33,626 nucleotides of DNA from positions 1 to 33,626 of IMG/VR virus record IMGVR_UViG_3300030382_004130. One strand, written 5' to 3'. Origin of the DNA: a virus. Below the pieces are notes generated by a model. The model worked only from the letters and a program-made list of their open reading frames with translations, had not been told where the DNA came from and searched no databases. Position numbers and translations under genes: made by a program. Positions 821 to 10,708 of the stretch are shown here, in pieces. Numbering within the stretch: position 1 is the first letter of the stretch; every line of letters begins with the position of its first letter.

Positions 821-3800
821 TTAATTTTTAACTTGTTTCCCTTTTTTAACTTTTACATAATATACTACAGTTCCTGCCGGGGATTGTAATTCTACAATAT
901 CTTTAGGGTCGAAATCTTTTAAATTTCTATACATAACTTTTTTATAACCTTGTGCTTTTAATTTTCTAATATCGTTTTTGTAATCTTTTTTTGCTTTTTC
1001 TATAGCTATTTCTTCCTGGTCAATAGTACTTTGTAACCCCCAATAAGGTAATCCTACACTCCAACTACTCCACCCTAAAATCAATGCTACTCGTTGCCAT
1101 GTTCTAGTCTCTTCGTCCATAGCCATCCTCATATTCATCATTTTTCTCATTACCCTATCTATTGGTATATTAGTTGCAGCGGAAATCAATTGAGAAAGTG
1201 CTAAATAAGCTGGATTATCCAAACTCCACCCACGCTTAGTAATTTCTTCCATATTCCAATTAAATGTTTTAGCTGTCGTTCTTAGTTTGCGTATCTTTGA
1301 ATCTAAAACTGGAGATACACCAAATACTTCCCATACTGCTTCTTCATAATCTGGGCTTTTCTGCAAACTTTCGTATCGTACTCGGAGTAGCACATTTTTA
1401 ACTGTAGATATTGCAGCCCCACCAAATCCGAGTCCAAATAATAATGAATCGGCCATACCATTTACAATTTTAGCTAATCTATCTTTTTCTTCCTCGTCTG
1501 TTTCATCATCAAATAACATTGCAAATAATGCCTGTTGTAATGCATTAAATATTATATTTTGAACTGTAGTATAATAAATTATTTTAGATAAATTACTCAA
1601 ATCGCTTTCACGTTGAGTCATACCTGGTTTTTTTCTTCTATTATATAAATCTCTAATAGCTTTTTTGGTCATCCTGTTATATTGCATTGTAACATTCTGG
1701 AATGCTAATAACACTCTACCCGCTAAACTAGCTTGTTGTTGTGATATTTTACTAGGATTACTAGACTGCTGACTTTCTTCTGATATAGCATAGAAATCAT
1801 CAAATGCTTTTGCCTCTGCTTCTGCTTTAGTATATTTTTTACTTGTTTCAGGATTAATTCTATTTAATAAAGCATTTCTTCTATTTATATAAAAAGTAGC
1901 TCCACCTGTTGCAATTGCCAAACTGTCCATTATTCTTGTAATAATAAATCCTTTATCAAGTAGATAGGCTATAGCCCCTTTCATACCACCATCTTTAGCG
2001 GCATTGGCTAATTCAGCTTCGTTAACATTAATCTTTAAACCATCTCGTCTATTAACTAAATAATCAGAATTCATTAATTTCACCACTGTTGGCCAATATT
2101 CTGCGCTAGCAAAAGCTTTGGCTGCGGCATATATATTATTATCACCCCAATTTATAAAGTTTACATTAGATATAAGCTGAAGTAGTCCAGATTTTACATT
2201 TAAGAACATTACAGCACCAACAGAGCCATTTAGCCAATCAAGCATTTCATTTACTATTCTTGCCCCACCACCTTGATATACCGGTCTATTACTACCAGAT
2301 TTCATTCTACGTAAACTGTCTTTTAATGCTTCAACCCATTTCTTGCCATAAAGAGCTTCTAGTTTAAGTAAGTTTTTCTCTGAAAATATAATATTAACAT
2401 TCTCATCAAATTCGGTCATAGCTTTTCGTCTAAACTCTCTATCGATACCACCCATTATATCGCTATCAATTGTGCCTGCAACCCAATTTTCTGCTGGAGC
2501 TGGATATTGTTTACTTTTATTAATTAACATTACATTATCTGCAAATGACATAAGCTCTGCATCGTTTTCCACAGCTTTGACTAAAGCATTTTGATCACGT
2601 TTAGATAATCCAGGAATTTCCATTCCTTGCTTAGTCCACATATAAACTCTCATTGCCTGGGACTTTGTATATGGCCCAACACCTATTTGGTCCATTAGGG
2701 GGTTTCCTTTTATACTTGATCGTAGTGAAGGAAAAACTTCTTTAAGCGCAGCAAAATCATTAGCTACAGCGACTTTAGCTGATAATATAGATTGATCAGC
2801 TTTATTATAAGGTCCTATTAAATTATCTTCAATCCATTTAGCATGTCTATTGCCTTGTTTACCATAACCCATTAGATCTTGCATTAATCCTAAAAAGTCT
2901 TCAGCCGAAGGCGTAATAGTTAATTGTCTACCCATCCATTTAAAAAATCCTTTATCTTTTTTCTGTCCTTCAATTTTTGCTCTAGCTGGAGAATATTGTG
3001 CCTGAGCTTTCACGCCCTGAGACTCTTCTAACATTTCATTAAATTCCTTGTCAAGGTTTACCGATTTATCAGCTATAGCTTGCTGTACTTTAGATTTAAT
3101 ATCTACTTGGTCTAAAATTTGTTTAACTGCGTCTACATTCATTTTTGAATCATCTGCAAAATAAAAGTCATTATATCCTTCTTGAGTTTTAGATAATACC
3201 CATTGGGCTTTAGCTTGTGGGCTACCATCTTCTAATCCTGTAATATTTTTTATTGGTATATTTAATCCTATACCATCTAAAAATAATTTTATATTTTGTG
3301 CCGACGCTTGTGGTCTCGCTGTAAGAACATAAATATCTCCACTACCAAACTTATCTTGTCTACGTAAAGCAAGATCTGCTAATGGTCCTTTTTTAGCTCC
3401 TTTAACATTTTCAAATTGGGAGAAATCAAACTCTGCCCCTTGTTCAGTTAATATACTTGCTTGCTCTGCAAATTGTGCTGGCGTTAATCTTCTTAATGTA
3501 CCATCAAGCATTGAAACTAAAACCTGTTCTTTAGTTTTAGCCAATGTATCATCCATATCAAATACACTAATACCTTTTTTCTTTTTATTTACTTTCTGCG
3601 CATTTACTTGGGTGTCTAAAGAATTTTCCAAAATCTTTTTAACCTGTTTGGATGTTCTAGGCACTCTACAGGGCGATCCACAAAGTTTTTGTAAAAAATG
3701 TGGCATATATTCTTGTACATTTAATTTAGCATTATCTGCTAGAATCGCAGCAGGAAGAGCTGCTTTTAAATAATCTTGAGTCTGTTTAGTATCCCATTCC

Positions 3801-6800
3801 CCTTTATTATATTTCATAGCTGCAAACGCCTGTTCTTTAACTACATTAGGATAAAAAGGAACCCACATAGCAACCTTATCTATAACTTGTCTGCTTCCGT
3901 TCATTAATTCTTTAGCAGTATAAGTTTTACCATTAACAATTACATTAGATCTTATATCAGCATTAGAGATTTCGAACATAGTTGCCATTTTACCTGTCTT
4001 GCGGTTATACATTTCAATGTCGTTACCGTTTTTGTAAAAATATTCATTAGCATATCTTAATAGTCCTTTAACTTTTAAAAACTCTTCTAAAGTAATTTTA
4101 CCAGCTTTATATTCATTATATTTTTGAAGTATAAATGGATGTAATTCACTTTTGGCATTCCAGGTTTCATTAAGTTCAGTACCAAACACCCCAATATCTC
4201 CTTTATTATATGTAGCTTCTTGCTCTACCCCAGTAACAGCAAGTTGAACTAAATCATTTTCAGATAACCATTGCTCTATACCTTCACTAATTGCTTCATT
4301 TGAAGTCTCTAACATATCCCCTATCATTCTAATTTGATTACCAAATTGAACTAAATGCTCTTTTATTATTTCAGCGCCTTTGTAAAAATGTTTCATCTTC
4401 CCTAATACAGGACTTAATTGTCGCCCAATATTCATTGTAAAGTTAGATTTAGCAAATAATATATCTAGTAAAGGAGCTAAGAGTTTTCTATTTAATTTTC
4501 TAAAAATTTCAAATATTTTTTTTCTGCCTTTCTTTGCTTCGTTTGTATTGTCAATATTTGTATCAATTAATTTATTAAGCGAATTTATAGTTTGTTTAAG
4601 GGTTTTACCCGGTAAAGATTGTCCTTTAATAGCCTTTTTAATATTTTCATTAGTTTTAAAGCCTTTATCTTTAAAAATTGCTAATAATTCTTTTTTAAGA
4701 AGCGCTATACTGCCAATTTCTCCTTTATCATAAGCAGTTTGTGTTGCTTCAAATTTAGCATCTCTATTTTCTAACTGACTAGGTTTATATTTGGGCTCGC
4801 CATGTTTTTTTAAATATGCTTCATTTTCAATCCTACGATCTTCCCTAATTTTAGCATCTCTCTCTTTTGCGGCTTGAAGGTTATTTATATTTGATATATA
4901 ATTTATAGTACCTCCCCCTCTTTTATCCATAACTGTTTTACTATAACCTTGGGATAAATTACTGGCTTTCAATATTTCCCTGGGGTCTAAGCCTAATTCT
5001 GTTAAAGCAGTAAATAATACCTCTTGAGCATCTAATATTTCTTGTTTAGTACTAGTTAAATAATCTTTATTGAATTTGTTTATTAAATAATTTATACCAT
5101 CCGAAGTAGCTCCTTTATAACCTCGCGCCCATGTTTTATTAAAATCTTTTTGTGAAAATTTTGCTGGGGTTAATTCTCTATCTTTACCTGTATAAATATC
5201 AATTCCAGAGTCTTGAACTGCTGTTGTTTCTGTCCCAAAAATTCTAAAGACTTCTTGTATCGCGAGTTTTATGTTTTCTTTATTTTCACCTTTAGCTTTT
5301 TTAAGCTTAGCTCTTAGCTCTTCAACTGAGTAGTCGCTCCATAATTCTTTTACTTTGTTCCTTCTCTCATAAATAGCAGCGATATTCACTCTTTCATAAA
5401 GTCTCCTAGGAAAATACATTCTTCCATGGATCACTTTCTTGAAATCTTTCTCCCAAAACCAGTCATATGCGCGAAGGTGTCTAGTGTGAGGGCTCTTATC
5501 AAATTCTTTTTGTAACATTTTATCAAAAAATGTTAATCCCTCTAAACTAATTTCTTTTAATCGTTTTTTACGCTTTTCGTTTCTTTCTACTGCTTTTTTT
5601 ACATTTTTTATTGGTGGTGGTGGTGGTGGTGGTGGTGGGCTCGCAACCGCAACTCTATCAAATGAAGTATCTTCTAAATTTCTTCTATCTAATTGCTGAT
5701 CAATAGTATCTATAAATTGCTCTGCTGTTATAGGAGAATTTTGCTCCTTAAGCATCCCATCTAATTTATTCATAAAATCTTTATCGACTTTTAATTCTTG
5801 TAAAGACTCTAATGCTATATCTTTAGCAATTAATTGGAATAAAGATTTAGCTCTTTTTACATATTTAGATTTTTGTTTAGAAGATAAATCTTTACCTATA
5901 AATTCTATAAAATAATCTTTTAATGTTTGTTTTGAAGGAATAGTTATATCGAAAATTTGTTTATTATAACTACCTTTTTTACCAGTTTTAGGACTTATAC
6001 TTGTAGTAGGTGTTGTACCTGTTTCTTTAATTCCAAATAAACTTTTTCCACCTACTTGAAATCTATTTTTCATATCATAAACTGATATGTTTTTTACAAA
6101 ATTACTATCGAATAATTTATTAATAAAATCAGAGTAAGGTTTTGAAGCTAATGTTCCTATAGATCTTTTTACATCAGCCCATGTGTTTTTTGTTGCTTCT
6201 TTTTCTAATGCTTTTACTATTTCATTAACTGATTTACCTTTATTTACTAAATTAGATATAGTACTTCTAGTATCCTCTTTTATTTGATTTATAGTTTCAG
6301 CAGAAATATATTCTTCTATTATGGGGTTATTACTAACAGTTATTTTTTTCCTTTGCTTAGGGCCAACTTCCTTTTCTTGTGACGACTCTTCAGCAACACT
6401 CTCAATTTCTTTTTTGACATTTGGATCATCAATTCTTAAATCTGTTCCTTGCCCAATTGCTGCTTCACTATAAATTGTCTTTCTCTTTCTCATTAAAGAT
6501 TCGGTAGAATAGGTGCTCCATGTTGCTCCTTTACCTTCTTTATAGTTTCTTATAACTGGGGCTAGCGCAGATCTTACCGCGTCCCATACCGCTTTGGCTT
6601 GTATAGATCCAGCCTCTGGATCAAACCCTACAGCTTTCATATATAAAGCTTTATTAGAATTTATTAAAGTATTAATAGCTGCATTTTTAGCACTAGGTGA
6701 AGCCTTAGGGTCATTTATTGTTTTTAATAAAAGCTCATTAGTTCCACCCTCATCTGCAATTGCCGCTTCATCTAATATAGCTGCTTCATCTATCTCAACT

Positions 6801-9800
6801 AAATCCAAATCCGCAGCTTCAGGGGTAGACTTAGCATTTTGAGCTTCTATTTGTTTTTCTCTTTTAATAGCTTCAAAGCTTCTTCTTATTAAAGTAGGAC
6901 TAGCTTCTACACCCATCCCAAAATCAGTCTCTAAATCTAAACCTAAATCTCCTATTTGCTGTTGGAAATCTTCCCACTTTGTATCTTCTTTAATTATACT
7001 AGTATCTTTTAATCCTATATCTTGTAATATTCTTTCACTAGTATTAGCTAATTGTATTACTTCTAAATTATTAGCTTGATTTAATAAATCTAATTCACTC
7101 GCATCCCAAAACCCAGGTTCCCCGCCAGGGATAAAATAATTTCCTGGCCTTAAAGATTTAGGTTTAACATCTTGTATGGTTGGGCCTTTTTTAACTGGGG
7201 TTAATCCATCGTCTTGAATACTAGGGTCTCTAGCAAGAGCGGGGGCGGCCCCAGGGCCACCTCCATCATCACCTCCATCATCATCTCTATAATATTTCTC
7301 AATAAATGCAGCATTTTCCCTTGAAAGACCTTTATCAATAAAAGGTAATATACTTTGAGCAGTAGTATCATCTACTCTCTCTTGCATTATCTTTTTTATT
7401 TTTTCATCAATTTCAGCCTTTAGCATTATTTCATTAATACTTAATTCTTTATTACCAGTTTTTTTAATAATATTTTCTAATTTTTCTTGTGCTACTAATA
7501 ATCTAATTAATTCTGCTTTCATTGTTCCTCTAATTTCCGAAGGTATTTTAAGAGCTGCTTCTCTTATAGCTGAAACTTCTTTTATTTGAGTATACTTATC
7601 CTTTTTTAATAAAGATTTATCTTTTTTTATTTTATCAATAATTTGTTTAAAATAATTATCATTAACTTGGAATGTACCTGCATCAGGATCCATGTCTATA
7701 TTAATTGCTCGATTCATAGCTTGAGTAGCATAACTAGCAGGGCTCGTTCCCGCGGCAGATGTAGCAGACATAGATATTGCGGCACCAGTACCAAATAATT
7801 CACCCATTTGATAACCCATGTTATAATTAGTCATAAGCTCATCAAAATCAATATTTTTTCTAAATGGACTGTCTATTTGCTCCCCTGGCATTTTAACAAA
7901 ATTACCACCTACTTGTTCTAAGTAATTTTGGAAAAATTCTTCAAGCCCTTCTTTATAAGGAGTTACCCCAGCGGCTACTACTTTCGGCGCTGCGGTTGCT
8001 ACCACCCAGTTTAAAAAAGTATTTTTCATCATTTGCTGTGCCATTGAATTACCTAAAATTCCCTCAGCCATTCCTTTCCCTGCTTTTCCCATAGCATAAT
8101 CACTAGCAAATGAAATAGCGGCTACACCTGCTGCTGGTAAAATTGCAGCTAATTGGTCGCCATATCTATTATCTTTTAAAGCTTCCATATATTCTTCAAG
8201 AGTATATCCCCCTTCTCCATATTCTTTATCCATTTGCCTCTGAACTCCATCCATATATAAAGATCCATATGTTTGGGCTCCTTCTATTAAACCCCCAGCA
8301 GCAGCAAATATATTACCAACCGTAAATGCTGTAGCAGCAAACCCTTTAGAAAAAGCCCCTTCAGGAGCTAGAGTAGCTATAGTACCTATACCATAAGCGG
8401 TAGTTGCAACAGCCTGTGGAATGAAATTTTGAATTTGCTCAACACCCTGCGCCATTCTTCCCAATAATCCATCAATAGTTAAATGTTCAAAAGGACTTTC
8501 TCCTCCAGGAGGGAGTGATGTTATAGCGTCAAAAATATTCCATTTAGGAACTTCTCCTGTTAATGGGTCTATAAGATCTAATTCATTAAATTTTTGTTTT
8601 CTTTTTAATGCATCAAGATATTCAGTAATATCTTCTTCAAAATTTTCGGTAGTATTCCCTAATCTTAATTTTTTTCTTTCATAATAGTCTCCAATATTAT
8701 CATCCTCACTCCACGTTACTGTATCAAAAGATTCAGGTTTAAAAATCCAAGAGCCAAATCTGCGATCAAACCTATTCTTTAATTTATTCCAATCATAATG
8801 TCCAGTACTACTAATAACACCGTCATCTAAAGCCTGCTCAATAGCATCTAAAGATTCCCCAATACTCATATTATTATTAAGTATACCAAGTTCAAAAGCT
8901 TTATCTAATTCATCAACAATCCCTGACCTCCTTTCATACCTTTCTTTTTGCGCAGCAATTTCAATACTATTAGCCAGCTCAGTTAAGCCGGCTCCTAGTT
9001 GGCCCTCTTCATCCCCTTCACCAGGCTCCCATACATGTTTCCACCACATTTCCTTAGTATCAGCCCACCACTTATCTTTTCTCGCTTTCCAACTTCTATC
9101 CCCTGCATCATATGCTTTGCTTTCTTCTTCAACCCACTTTAAATTAGGATTTTTGAATCTTGCGTAATCTTTACTAAGCTTTTCATAAAATTTACTCCCT
9201 GTTACTCCATATTCTTTAAATATTTGTGTAGCTTCTTGGTCTTTAGTTAATCTTTTAGTATATTCATCATTATACCATTTTTCAAATTCTTGTTGAACAA
9301 ATTCAATTTGATGTTGTTGTGGGTTATTTGGATCTATATATTTAGCGCCTAATTCATTCATCTTTTCTAAAGCTGTTTGCTCTAGTTCATTTCCAATTCT
9401 AGTGCTTATCGCATTAAATCTAGGATCATTTAAAGTAGCCTTACTAACAGTTTCTTGATATGATATTTGTAAATCTTTATCAGAATTTTTAATATCCTCT
9501 AATCTGGGGGCAAATCTTTCCACATAAGCTAAAGCGCTAGGATCAGCTTCTGTTGCCATATTTAATTCTTCAGCGGTTACTTCATTTCTTGTAGCAGGAT
9601 TATTATATCTTTCTAATATAGCTTCTCTTTGTGCTATAATATCTCTGCTTGACTCTAATTCTAAAAAATCCCTTTCATCTAAATTATTAACTCCATCAGA
9701 TAATTTTTTAATTAATTCTAATCTTGATTCACTTCCTCCTCTCCATAATTTATTATATTCTTCCTTGCTCATGCCTATTAATTCTCGTGCTCGATGGAAA

Positions 9801-10708
9801 TTTAAACGATCAACCGGGCTTATAGTGCCATCAAGTATTGCTTCTGTATCAACTATATTAAATACATCCCCCACATCCCAAGACTGTAAATTTATATTTT
9901 CTATATTTTCAAGCAAAACCCTCAAGTCATCTGATAACTTAGATTTTTCATTTAGTAATTCTGTTAAAATATCACCCTCCTTAACCCGTAATGTACTTGG
10001 TACATTTTCTTGTAATTCTTTCTTTAAACGATTATATTCTTCAACATCAACTTCACCCTTATGTTCCCCTTCTTGAATTGTTGGAGGATTATTTCTTAAT
10101 TTATTTATTTGGTCTTGATAAGATATAAGTTTTTGATCAAAAGTAATTGCGTTTTGTCTCTTTTTTTCATTATCTAATTGACGTTGGATTTCTTCACCTT
10201 CTTGGATATTTCTTCTACTTAAAAAATCCTGATAATTAGTCATGCTTGGCATATCATCAACATTAACTTCTTCTTCCTCTTCTACTCCAAATAATCCTTT
10301 ATTCCATGCATTAAAATCTTCTCCATCACTCAACATACCTCTTTGAGATAAATAAGAGTGAGTTCTCATTTTTAATACAGGTTGATTATTTATTCCTTGT
10401 AACCAGTCTTCATAACTTTCATCTTTACCTAACATGCCTTGATCCTTCAAATACATCCAAGTTCTTTTAGATAATTCTGCATTACCTATAAAACTTTTTT
10501 CTCTATCTACTATTTCTCCTTTAGAATTAATATTAGGATTTCCTGGGTTATCAGCATTTTTATAATTTGATAACCAATTAGCAGCATAAGATGCTAAATC
10601 AACAAAATCTTCACCTCCACTTTTTTCCCATAAAGCTTTAACTTTTGCTCTCCATTCTTGGGGAATTTGTGCCAAAGGATTTTGACCTTGTATTACTGTT
10701 TCCGGCAT
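821..10708 (-). CDS. Giant multidomain virion/ejection protein (3295 aa) with HAD domain
   Basis: This 3295-residue protein is probably an internal (ejected) virion protein, by its position after the tail genes and its size. Visible layout: an acidic, helical N-terminal region (to ~750); hydrophobic helices at ~757-778, 790-806, 851-868 and 896-914; a Gly/Asp/Pro-rich linker at ~1140-1160; a segment at ~1330-1425 resembling sigma-70 region 2 (KGATWSTYS, W1397, then MRKRKTIY); a run of nine Pro at 1691-1699; a basic helical region; and a HAD domain at ~2375-2535. HAD motifs present are D2384-x-D2386-x-T (VFDMDDT), T2463 (VLTAR), K2500 and D2519-D2520 (FADD). The last ~700 residues are helical with hydrophobic stretches at ~3043-3068 and 3086-3106 and a motif FQNVTMQYNRMTKKA near 3000. 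I see no DxDxD polymerase signature other than the HAD loop, and no obvious lytic transglycosylase. Start at 10708 follows an AT-rich leader, 16 bases after the previous stop. Confidence 0.85.
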   Translation of the reverse strand: MPETVIQGQNPLAQIPQEWRAKVKALWEKSGGEDFVDLASYAANWLSNYKNADNPGNPNINSKGEIVDREKSFIGNAELSKRTWMYLKDQGMLGKDESYEDWLQGINNQPVLKMRTHSYLSQRGMLSDGEDFNAWNKGLFGVEEEEEVNVDDMPSMTNYQDFLSRRNIQEGEEIQRQLDNEKKRQNAITFDQKLISYQDQINKLRNNPPTIQEGEHKGEVDVEEYNRLKKELQENVPSTLRVKEGDILTELLNEKSKLSDDLRVLLENIENINLQSWDVGDVFNIVDTEAILDGTISPVDRLNFHRARELIGMSKEEYNKLWRGGSESRLELIKKLSDGVNNLDERDFLELESSRDIIAQREAILERYNNPATRNEVTAEELNMATEADPSALAYVERFAPRLEDIKNSDKDLQISYQETVSKATLNDPRFNAISTRIGNELEQTALEKMNELGAKYIDPNNPQQHQIEFVQQEFEKWYNDEYTKRLTKDQEATQIFKEYGVTGSKFYEKLSKDYARFKNPNLKWVEEESKAYDAGDRSWKARKDKWWADTKEMWWKHVWEPGEGDEEGQLGAGLTELANSIEIAAQKERYERRSGIVDELDKAFELGILNNNMSIGESLDAIEQALDDGVISSTGHYDWNKLKNRFDRRFGSWIFKPESFDTVTWSEDDNIGDYYERKKLRLGNTTENFEEDITEYLDALKRKQKFNELDLIDPLTGEVPKWNIFDAITSLPPGGESPFEHLTIDGLLGRMAQGVEQIQNFIPQAVATTAYGIGTIATLAPEGAFSKGFAATAFTVGNIFAAAGGLIEGAQTYGSLYMDGVQRQMDKEYGEGGYTLEEYMEALKDNRYGDQLAAILPAAGVAAISFASDYAMGKAGKGMAEGILGNSMAQQMMKNTFLNWVVATAAPKVVAAGVTPYKEGLEEFFQNYLEQVGGNFVKMPGEQIDSPFRKNIDFDELMTNYNMGYQMGELFGTGAAISMSATSAAGTSPASYATQAMNRAINIDMDPDAGTFQVNDNYFKQIIDKIKKDKSLLKKDKYTQIKEVSAIREAALKIPSEIRGTMKAELIRLLVAQEKLENIIKKTGNKELSINEIMLKAEIDEKIKKIMQERVDDTTAQSILPFIDKGLSRENAAFIEKYYRDDDGGDDGGGPGAAPALARDPSIQDDGLTPVKKGPTIQDVKPKSLRPGNYFIPGGEPGFWDASELDLLNQANNLEVIQLANTSERILQDIGLKDTSIIKEDTKWEDFQQQIGDLGLDLETDFGMGVEASPTLIRRSFEAIKREKQIEAQNAKSTPEAADLDLVEIDEAAILDEAAIADEGGTNELLLKTINDPKASPSAKNAAINTLINSNKALYMKAVGFDPEAGSIQAKAVWDAVRSALAPVIRNYKEGKGATWSTYSTESLMRKRKTIYSEAAIGQGTDLRIDDPNVKKEIESVAEESSQEKEVGPKQRKKITVSNNPIIEEYISAETINQIKEDTRSTISNLVNKGKSVNEIVKALEKEATKNTWADVKRSIGTLASKPYSDFINKLFDSNFVKNISVYDMKNRFQVGGKSLFGIKETGTTPTTSISPKTGKKGSYNKQIFDITIPSKQTLKDYFIEFIGKDLSSKQKSKYVKRAKSLFQLIAKDIALESLQELKVDKDFMNKLDGMLKEQNSPITAEQFIDTIDQQLDRRNLEDTSFDRVAVASPPPPPPPPPIKNVKKAVERNEKRKKRLKEISLEGLTFFDKMLQKEFDKSPHTRHLRAYDWFWEKDFKKVIHGRMYFPRRLYERVNIAAIYERRNKVKELWSDYSVEELRAKLKKAKGENKENIKLAIQEVFRIFGTETTAVQDSGIDIYTGKDRELTPAKFSQKDFNKTWARGYKGATSDGINYLINKFNKDYLTSTKQEILDAQEVLFTALTELGLDPREILKASNLSQGYSKTVMDKRGGGTINYISNINNLQAAKERDAKIREDRRIENEAYLKKHGEPKYKPSQLENRDAKFEATQTAYDKGEIGSIALLKKELLAIFKDKGFKTNENIKKAIKGQSLPGKTLKQTINSLNKLIDTNIDNTNEAKKGRKKIFEIFRKLNRKLLAPLLDILFAKSNFTMNIGRQLSPVLGKMKHFYKGAEIIKEHLVQFGNQIRMIGDMLETSNEAISEGIEQWLSENDLVQLAVTGVEQEATYNKGDIGVFGTELNETWNAKSELHPFILQKYNEYKAGKITLEEFLKVKGLLRYANEYFYKNGNDIEMYNRKTGKMATMFEISNADIRSNVIVNGKTYTAKELMNGSRQVIDKVAMWVPFYPNVVKEQAFAAMKYNKGEWDTKQTQDYLKAALPAAILADNAKLNVQEYMPHFLQKLCGSPCRVPRTSKQVKKILENSLDTQVNAQKVNKKKKGISVFDMDDTLAKTKEQVLVSMLDGTLRRLTPAQFAEQASILTEQGAEFDFSQFENVKGAKKGPLADLALRRQDKFGSGDIYVLTARPQASAQNIKLFLDGIGLNIPIKNITGLEDGSPQAKAQWVLSKTQEGYNDFYFADDSKMNVDAVKQILDQVDIKSKVQQAIADKSVNLDKEFNEMLEESQGVKAQAQYSPARAKIEGQKKDKGFFKWMGRQLTITPSAEDFLGLMQDLMGYGKQGNRHAKWIEDNLIGPYNKADQSILSAKVAVANDFAALKEVFPSLRSSIKGNPLMDQIGVGPYTKSQAMRVYMWTKQGMEIPGLSKRDQNALVKAVENDAELMSFADNVMLINKSKQYPAPAENWVAGTIDSDIMGGIDREFRRKAMTEFDENVNIIFSEKNLLKLEALYGKKWVEALKDSLRRMKSGSNRPVYQGGGARIVNEMLDWLNGSVGAVMFLNVKSGLLQLISNVNFINWGDNNIYAAAKAFASAEYWPTVVKLMNSDYLVNRRDGLKINVNEAELANAAKDGGMKGAIAYLLDKGFIITRIMDSLAIATGGATFYINRRNALLNRINPETSKKYTKAEAEAKAFDDFYAISEESQQSSNPSKISQQQASLAGRVLLAFQNVTMQYNRMTKKAIRDLYNRRKKPGMTQRESDLSNLSKIIYYTTVQNIIFNALQQALFAMLFDDETDEEEKDRLAKIVNGMADSLLFGLGFGGAAISTVKNVLLRVRYESLQKSPDYEEAVWEVFGVSPVLDSKIRKLRTTAKTFNWNMEEITKRGWSLDNPAYLALSQLISAATNIPIDRVMRKMMNMRMAMDEETRTWQRVALILGWSSWSVGLPYWGLQSTIDQEEIAIEKAKKDYKNDIRKLKAQGYKKVMYRNLKDFDPKDIVELQSPAGTVVYYVKVKKGKQVKN
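5612..5638 (-). repeat. (CCA)9 triplet repeat encoding nine prolines
   Basis: On the coding strand nine identical CCA codons follow one another inside the giant virion gene, encoding residues 1691-1699 between an Ala-Ser and a basic Lys-rich segment. Identical codons make it a true microsatellite as well as a polyproline linker. Length changes would be in frame, so it would vary linker length but not switch the gene off. Confidence 0.9.

Follow-up and report, generated by a model that had tools for sequence, protein, structure and literature searches.

We describe a complete HAD phosphatase domain located within P0001, a 3295-aa protein encoded by the gene that closes the virion-structural block in a phage genome fragment. 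Our preferred reading, held with moderate confidence, is that P0001 is a polyvalent-type virion protein that delivers a HAD phosphohydrolase at entry, with nucleotide or nucleic-acid-end phosphates as the likeliest substrates. HAD phosphatases of this kind recur in hundreds of uncultured phage contigs and appear to be movable cargo of giant virion proteins. Enzymes injected by phages are active while the phage DNA is at its most exposed, during the first minutes of infection, and ADP-ribosyltransferases, nucleases, and RNA polymerases are among the cargoes known so far; a virion-delivered HAD, if true, would add a new enzyme class tied to the chemistry of nucleotides or nucleic-acid ends.

The stretch of DNA analyzed herein (the window) comprises 33.6 kb (33,626 nt) and is the IMG/VR virus record IMGVR_UViG_3300030382_004130, a genome fragment. 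Upstream of the giant open reading frame (ORF), on the same strand, lie genes for TerL, the portal, and putative structural proteins, recognized by PHROG matches. The closest TerL and portal sequences are found in an uncultured genome, MW202828 (64% and 49% identity, respectively), and in podoviruses that infect Flavobacterium and Cellulophaga, namely those of Elemovirus, Callevirus (phi38:1), and Baltivirus; the Elemovirus isolates are 45% identical in TerL and 40% in the portal. Judged by these genes, the window phage is podovirus-like and falls within the Elemovirus/Callevirus group and, because its terminase and portal are nearest to those of the Flavobacterium and Cellulophaga podoviruses, its host is probably flavobacterial. 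The last structural gene of phi38:1, phi19:3, and elemo is syntenic with that of P0001, likewise encodes a giant protein, and is annotated as a structural protein. PADLOC returned only a weak match (E 0.0055).

Organization of P0001 and its HAD domain

P0001 is encoded on the minus strand (positions 821–10708) from an ATG start codon. Its N-terminal ~2365 residues (3614–10708, minus) are poorly conserved, contain no Pfam domain, and show a hydrophobicity peak at residues 790–809; segments of this region recur in just 2 to 20 of 101 proteins. The HAD domain and the following ~740 residues form one block with 83% identity to near relatives, as against about 25%–30%, often falling below detection, in the N-terminal region. 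In nearly all relatives with a visible ORF end, the HAD domain is located about 840–980 residues from the C-terminus. As a separate observation, residues ~1334–1420 (window positions approximately 6449–6709, minus) include a stretch resembling sigma-70 region 2 (LINSNKALYMKAV...VIRNYKEGKGATWSTYSTESLMRKRKTI), a pattern resembled in about 20 relatives; the case is weak, but a sigma-like domain carried by the virion would, if true, be worthy of note.

The HAD domain spans residues 2366–2550 (3059–3613, minus), with the core at about 2379–2540. It contains, in order, motif I, D2384-x-D2386-x-T2388 (3545–3559, minus); motif II, T2463-A-R2465 (3314–3322, minus, with T2463 at 3320–3322); motif III, K2500 (3209–3211, minus); and motif IV, D2519-D2520 (3149–3154, minus). 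The first-pass annotation had placed a complete HAD domain with these residues in the 3295-aa protein, and translation reproduced its numbering of D2384, D2386, T2388, T2463, K2500, D2519, and D2520 exactly. In an alignment of 56 homologues from IMG/VR, D2384, D2386, T2463, R2465, K2500, D2519, and D2520 are invariant. Recruitment of loci by the C-terminal module of P0001 (C-module; described below) yielded a similar picture: among 80 such loci, every HAD domain found retains K2500, D2519, and D2520, and the T2463 position is occupied by T in 66 of 67 cases and by S in the remaining one. From this conservation, the four-motif HAD pattern is judged not to be a product of chance. Comparison with close relatives gave dN/dS values of about 0.09–0.16 (0.040/0.434, 0.088/0.605, and 0.191/1.167); purifying selection on the domain is strong.

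The predicted structure agrees with the motifs. AlphaFold2, run with the 56-row alignment, produced a model of the domain with the HAD strand order (pLDDT 84.7, pTM 0.78), so that the HAD core, whose absence from a structure prediction would have spoken against the first-pass annotation, is present in the model. Foldseek matched the model to the HAD phosphatases human PSPH, AphA, Nir2 LNS2, and T4 Pnkp at TM scores of 0.41–0.50; the matches with the top E-values (FakB and DegV) were discarded as spurious, their TM scores being below 0.3. No curated family cut-off was passed: the window domain scored 22.3 bits against DUF2608 (cut-off 22.6), and weak matches to family models, including those obtained with relatives, were to HAD-IA/IIIC/IB, HAD_2, Acid_PPase, and pyrimidine 5'-nucleotidase. 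Because the curated models recognize it only as a generic HAD, the domain represents a divergent HAD subfamily. Sequence searches of the PDB returned no confident relative, and tblastn of the HAD domain against annotated phage records gave a single match, in an uncultured 462-kb record that was matched by the HAD only.

The HAD domain is not a constant feature of these proteins. Among the 80 C-module loci, it is present in the same ORF in 66, in a separate frame in 1, and nowhere on the contig in 13, and is therefore an optional cassette rather than an indispensable part of the virion; on a quick maximum-likelihood tree, its absence requires at least 4 changes. In one relative (L008:8059-12772), the giant is split into a 482-aa ORF followed by a 1096-aa ORF that carries the HAD and C-module, and the HAD and C-module block may therefore exist as a protein of its own.

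Several other arrangements were observed among the relatives. In many of them, a domain with invariant E, H, and R (the "EH" domain; 27 sequences) directly precedes the HAD; its motifs are H..R..AP, EH..PA, NY.Q, and RYFN (for example, L193:9278-9958 and L160:9152-9820), and in relatives that lack the HAD, it is located directly N-terminal of the C-module linker. The EH domain matched no consistent Pfam family and was not detected in the window. A 2207-aa ORF on a contig from a Flavobacteriaceae MAG (L205) has an extra domain, GNAT-like by eye, between the HAD and the C-module. In another phage group (L270, L271, and L272), the same HAD is N-terminal in a 1218-aa protein and is preceded by an LTE leader.

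C-terminal module and proposed virion delivery

The C-module (residues 2557–3295; 824–3040, minus) shares the block conservation of the HAD and is all-helical in the AlphaFold2 model (pLDDT 76.8). Foldseek found no match for it in the PDB, and tblastn found none in 50,697 phage records; the module is thus missing from the annotated phage collection searched, a sizeable gap in what laboratory phage biology covers. In the viral Foldseek library, the module matched numerous giant phage proteins in their C-terminal parts, with E-values of about 1e-9 to 1e-4, the TM scores being modest (0.3–0.55) and the rmsd high for several. A number of these proteins are annotated as large polyvalent proteins, and one is an Elemovirus structural protein.

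Like polyvalent proteins, P0001 is large, has several domains, and is encoded by a gene that lies among the virion genes; from its gene position and fold, we infer that it is a virion protein. Based on the fold match of the C-module to large polyvalent proteins, P0001 is best read as a protein of this class, with the HAD as its putative cargo. Packaging and injection have been inferred for the class as a whole (Iyer et al. 2017, PMC5512222). The words "phosphatase" and "haloacid" have zero occurrences in the text of that survey, and the HAD therefore appears to be unlisted as polyvalent cargo. In searches against Pfam, P0001 matched no family at E ≤ 1, including the catalogued polyvalent domains (MPTase, ART, ParB, MuF, and LPD models).

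The same HAD subfamily is also found as stand-alone proteins of about 175–340 aa in large T4-like phage contigs. A [LIVM]xE leader motif located no more than 16 residues before motif I is present in 55 of 57 distinct stand-alone HADs (shuffled sequences: mean 23, maximum 34), in a test that was post hoc and on related sequences; in 44 of 70, the leader is followed by S or A. In the giants, the motif precedes the HAD in just 5 of 101, and the window giant is without such a leader. The leaders MKLLLENWRxYLNE and MIKLKDLLxE are common to unrelated ORFs of the same contigs, and a gp21-type prohead protease (PF03420) was found in 9 of the 24 contigs searched, among them all 8 that exceed 140 kb. 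According to PMC9026906, T4 internal proteins carry short capsid-targeting propeptides that are cut after L/I-x-E, and the proteins are ejected into the host. The L/I-x-E leaders together with the gp21-type protease suggest that members of the HAD subfamily are packaged and injected, and provide a second, independent case for virion delivery.

Capsid-targeting-like leaders were also seen on many unrelated ORFs of L217, L226, L238, L259, L261, L281, and similar contigs, some of these ORFs being ADP-ribosyltransferase-like by eye (YHG motifs). The leader-sharing ORFs of T4-like contigs may amount to a catalogue of injected effectors.

Under the polyvalent-protein reading, P0001 would be incorporated into the particle at a late stage and be carried into the host together with the DNA, the C-terminal helical module probably serving in packaging or delivery and the HAD directly upstream of it being the enzymatic cargo. 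Following the standard HAD mechanism, D2384 would form the aspartyl-phosphate and D2386 act as the acid/base, while T2463 and K2500 would hold the phosphate and D2519 and D2520 would bind Mg2+. The phosphatase would thus act before the expression of any phage gene, most likely on nucleotide or nucleic-acid-end phosphates. Catalysis, presence in the virion, injection, and substrate class are each put forward here as probable properties of the P0001 HAD. The suggestion in the first-pass annotation of a packaged or injected phosphatase or nucleotidase, which was worded with caution, gains support from the HAD fold and residues, the polyvalent-like C-module, and the leaders on stand-alone relatives.

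Nested kinase, candidate substrates, and alternative readings

In 6 of the 80 relatives, five of them distinct (L136/L146, L147, L150, L178, and L192), a P-loop kinase is nested within the HAD, on the C-terminal side of motif I; six sequences that seemed to have a gap at this motif proved to carry a kinase inserted downstream of an intact DxD. The kinase matches AAA_33 (E 9e-16), the PHROG polynucleotide kinase (E 3e-12), and Zeta_toxin (E 1e-11), and its weak PDB matches include chains of CthPnkp as well as T4 Pnk. The nested state requires at least 3 changes on the quick maximum-likelihood tree. Three lineages with stand-alone HADs (L018, L281, and L029) have a gene of this kinase family nearby; at most stand-alone HAD loci, no such kinase was present in the DNA examined, and P0001 itself is without one. 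The nesting of a kinase in a HAD, which three lineages show, offers a concrete biochemical hypothesis: because relatives repeatedly pair the HAD with a polynucleotide-kinase-like P-loop domain, nucleotides or nucleic-acid ends would be the likeliest substrates.

Profile comparison against single sequences (hhalign) ranked AphA first (probability 75), followed by T4 Pnkp (35) and the T5-type Dmp (31), with other E. coli HADs below 2. The model for DNA/RNA 3'-phosphatases, TIGR01664, matched 1 of 39 members weakly (E 0.059). Matches to PHROG_415, "polynucleotide kinase," were set aside as proof of PNKP identity, being found in 14 of 14 control genomes; in one T4-like contig, another locus gives a far stronger PHROG_415 match (E 4e-37). 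Taken together, the profile ranking and the kinase pairing point to nucleotide or nucleic-acid-end phosphates, without deciding between them.

A more specific scenario, which we advance as tentative, is end healing: prior to phage expression, the injected HAD, sometimes with a kinase, would mend the ends left where host defense nucleases have cleaved RNA or DNA, having been delivered by two unrelated routes, polyvalent giants in podovirus-like phages and capsid-targeting leaders in T4-like phages. RNA ligase was not detected in the giant-encoding contigs (PF09414; 19 contigs, all possibly incomplete; the search with PF09511 was without a positive control), and the lack of PF09414 speaks, as far as these contigs go, against a full set of T4-type RNA repair functions in them.

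A virion-delivered phosphatase could also be active on other small molecules, such as alarmones or defense second messengers, sugar phosphates, or envelope lipids, with the nested kinase resembling zeta-toxin or UDP-GlcNAc kinases. This reading, which we regard as somewhat unlikely, is favored by the best profile match, AphA, being a broad-specificity class B acid phosphatase and by the presence of a lipid-binding HAD relative, Nir2 LNS2, among the fold matches. It would also account for the Zeta_toxin match of the kinase and for the name UDP-N-acetylglucosamine kinase that one close giant has in the library of viral folds, and polyvalent proteins with zeta-toxin-like kinases have been described (PMC5512222). 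However, the kinase scores higher to AAA_33 and the PHROG polynucleotide kinase than to Zeta_toxin, its weak PDB matches include CthPnkp and T4 Pnk, and a kinase beside a phosphatase is a known layout of end-healing enzymes.

Less probable still, and in our view doubtful, is a role for the HAD in the producing cell or in virion assembly, with nucleotides or a virion precursor as possible targets, the giant being a structural or tail-tip part not delivered to the cytoplasm. The giant is indeed encoded in the late structural block, and its cultured syntenic homologues are named simply structural protein, but the fold match of the C-module is to polyvalent proteins, and the capsid-targeting-like leaders of the stand-alone relatives point to the head interior. 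That the HAD fold is degenerate or purely structural and lacks catalysis would fit its dispensability in 13 of 80 relatives; we consider it very improbable given that the catalytic residues are invariant in 56 sequences, dN/dS is about 0.1, and a structural fold could do without the full set of four motifs. Finally, crAss-like virion RNA polymerases are, as P0001 probably is, giant Bacteroidota-phage virion proteins with a D-x-D motif, but that the DFDD-like motif is their metal-binding DFDID misread as a HAD has next to no probability and is rejected on motif pattern and fold: the motif is D-x-D-D-T, not D-x-D-x-D, and is followed by the T, K, and DD motifs in order, AlphaFold2 gives a HAD, and the stand-alone relatives of about 175–340 aa are complete HADs.

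Comparison with known systems

With polyvalent delivery of a HAD phosphohydrolase as the preferred reading, P0001 can be set against several known systems. The Elemovirus, Callevirus, and Baltivirus phages share the gene order of the window, with a giant as the last structural gene in both, whereas their giants have no HAD motif and no detectable sequence similarity to P0001. Large polyvalent proteins (PMC5512222) are similarly giant and multidomain, are encoded in a late or virion gene block, and have swappable enzyme cassettes; the C-module of P0001 fold-matches proteins annotated as ART-PolyVal, large polyvalent protein-associated domain, MuF, and nuclease, whereas the known domains of the class are not recognized in P0001 by Pfam. 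The T4 internal head proteins and Alt have a capsid-targeting sequence and undergo gp21 cleavage; the stand-alone HADs resemble them in the L/I-x-E leader and in the gp21-type protease of their contigs, and the passages of PMC9026906 consulted mention no HAD among them.

Two phage phosphatases are of particular relevance. The T5-type Dmp, the deoxynucleoside-5'-monophosphatase of phage SP15, is a pre-early, HAD-like phosphatase that would likewise act at the start of infection. It is expressed from the first-entering DNA and is not known to be packaged as a protein. The HAD profile A5, searched at E ≤ 1 against SP15, matched nothing in its genome (a search without a positive control, the SP15 group being reported to encode a Swiss-army-knife HAD), and the Dmp appears to be a family separate from the window HAD. 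T4 Pnkp (PseT) and the PNK-HAD or "Swiss-army-knife" HAD of phage RNA repair (PMC7824862) combine a HAD phosphatase with a kinase partner, as do relatives of P0001. In T4 Pnkp, the kinase is N-terminal to the HAD, whereas in the window relatives, it is inserted inside the HAD, and T4 Pnkp is expressed in the cell, whereas the window HAD is probably delivered by the virion.
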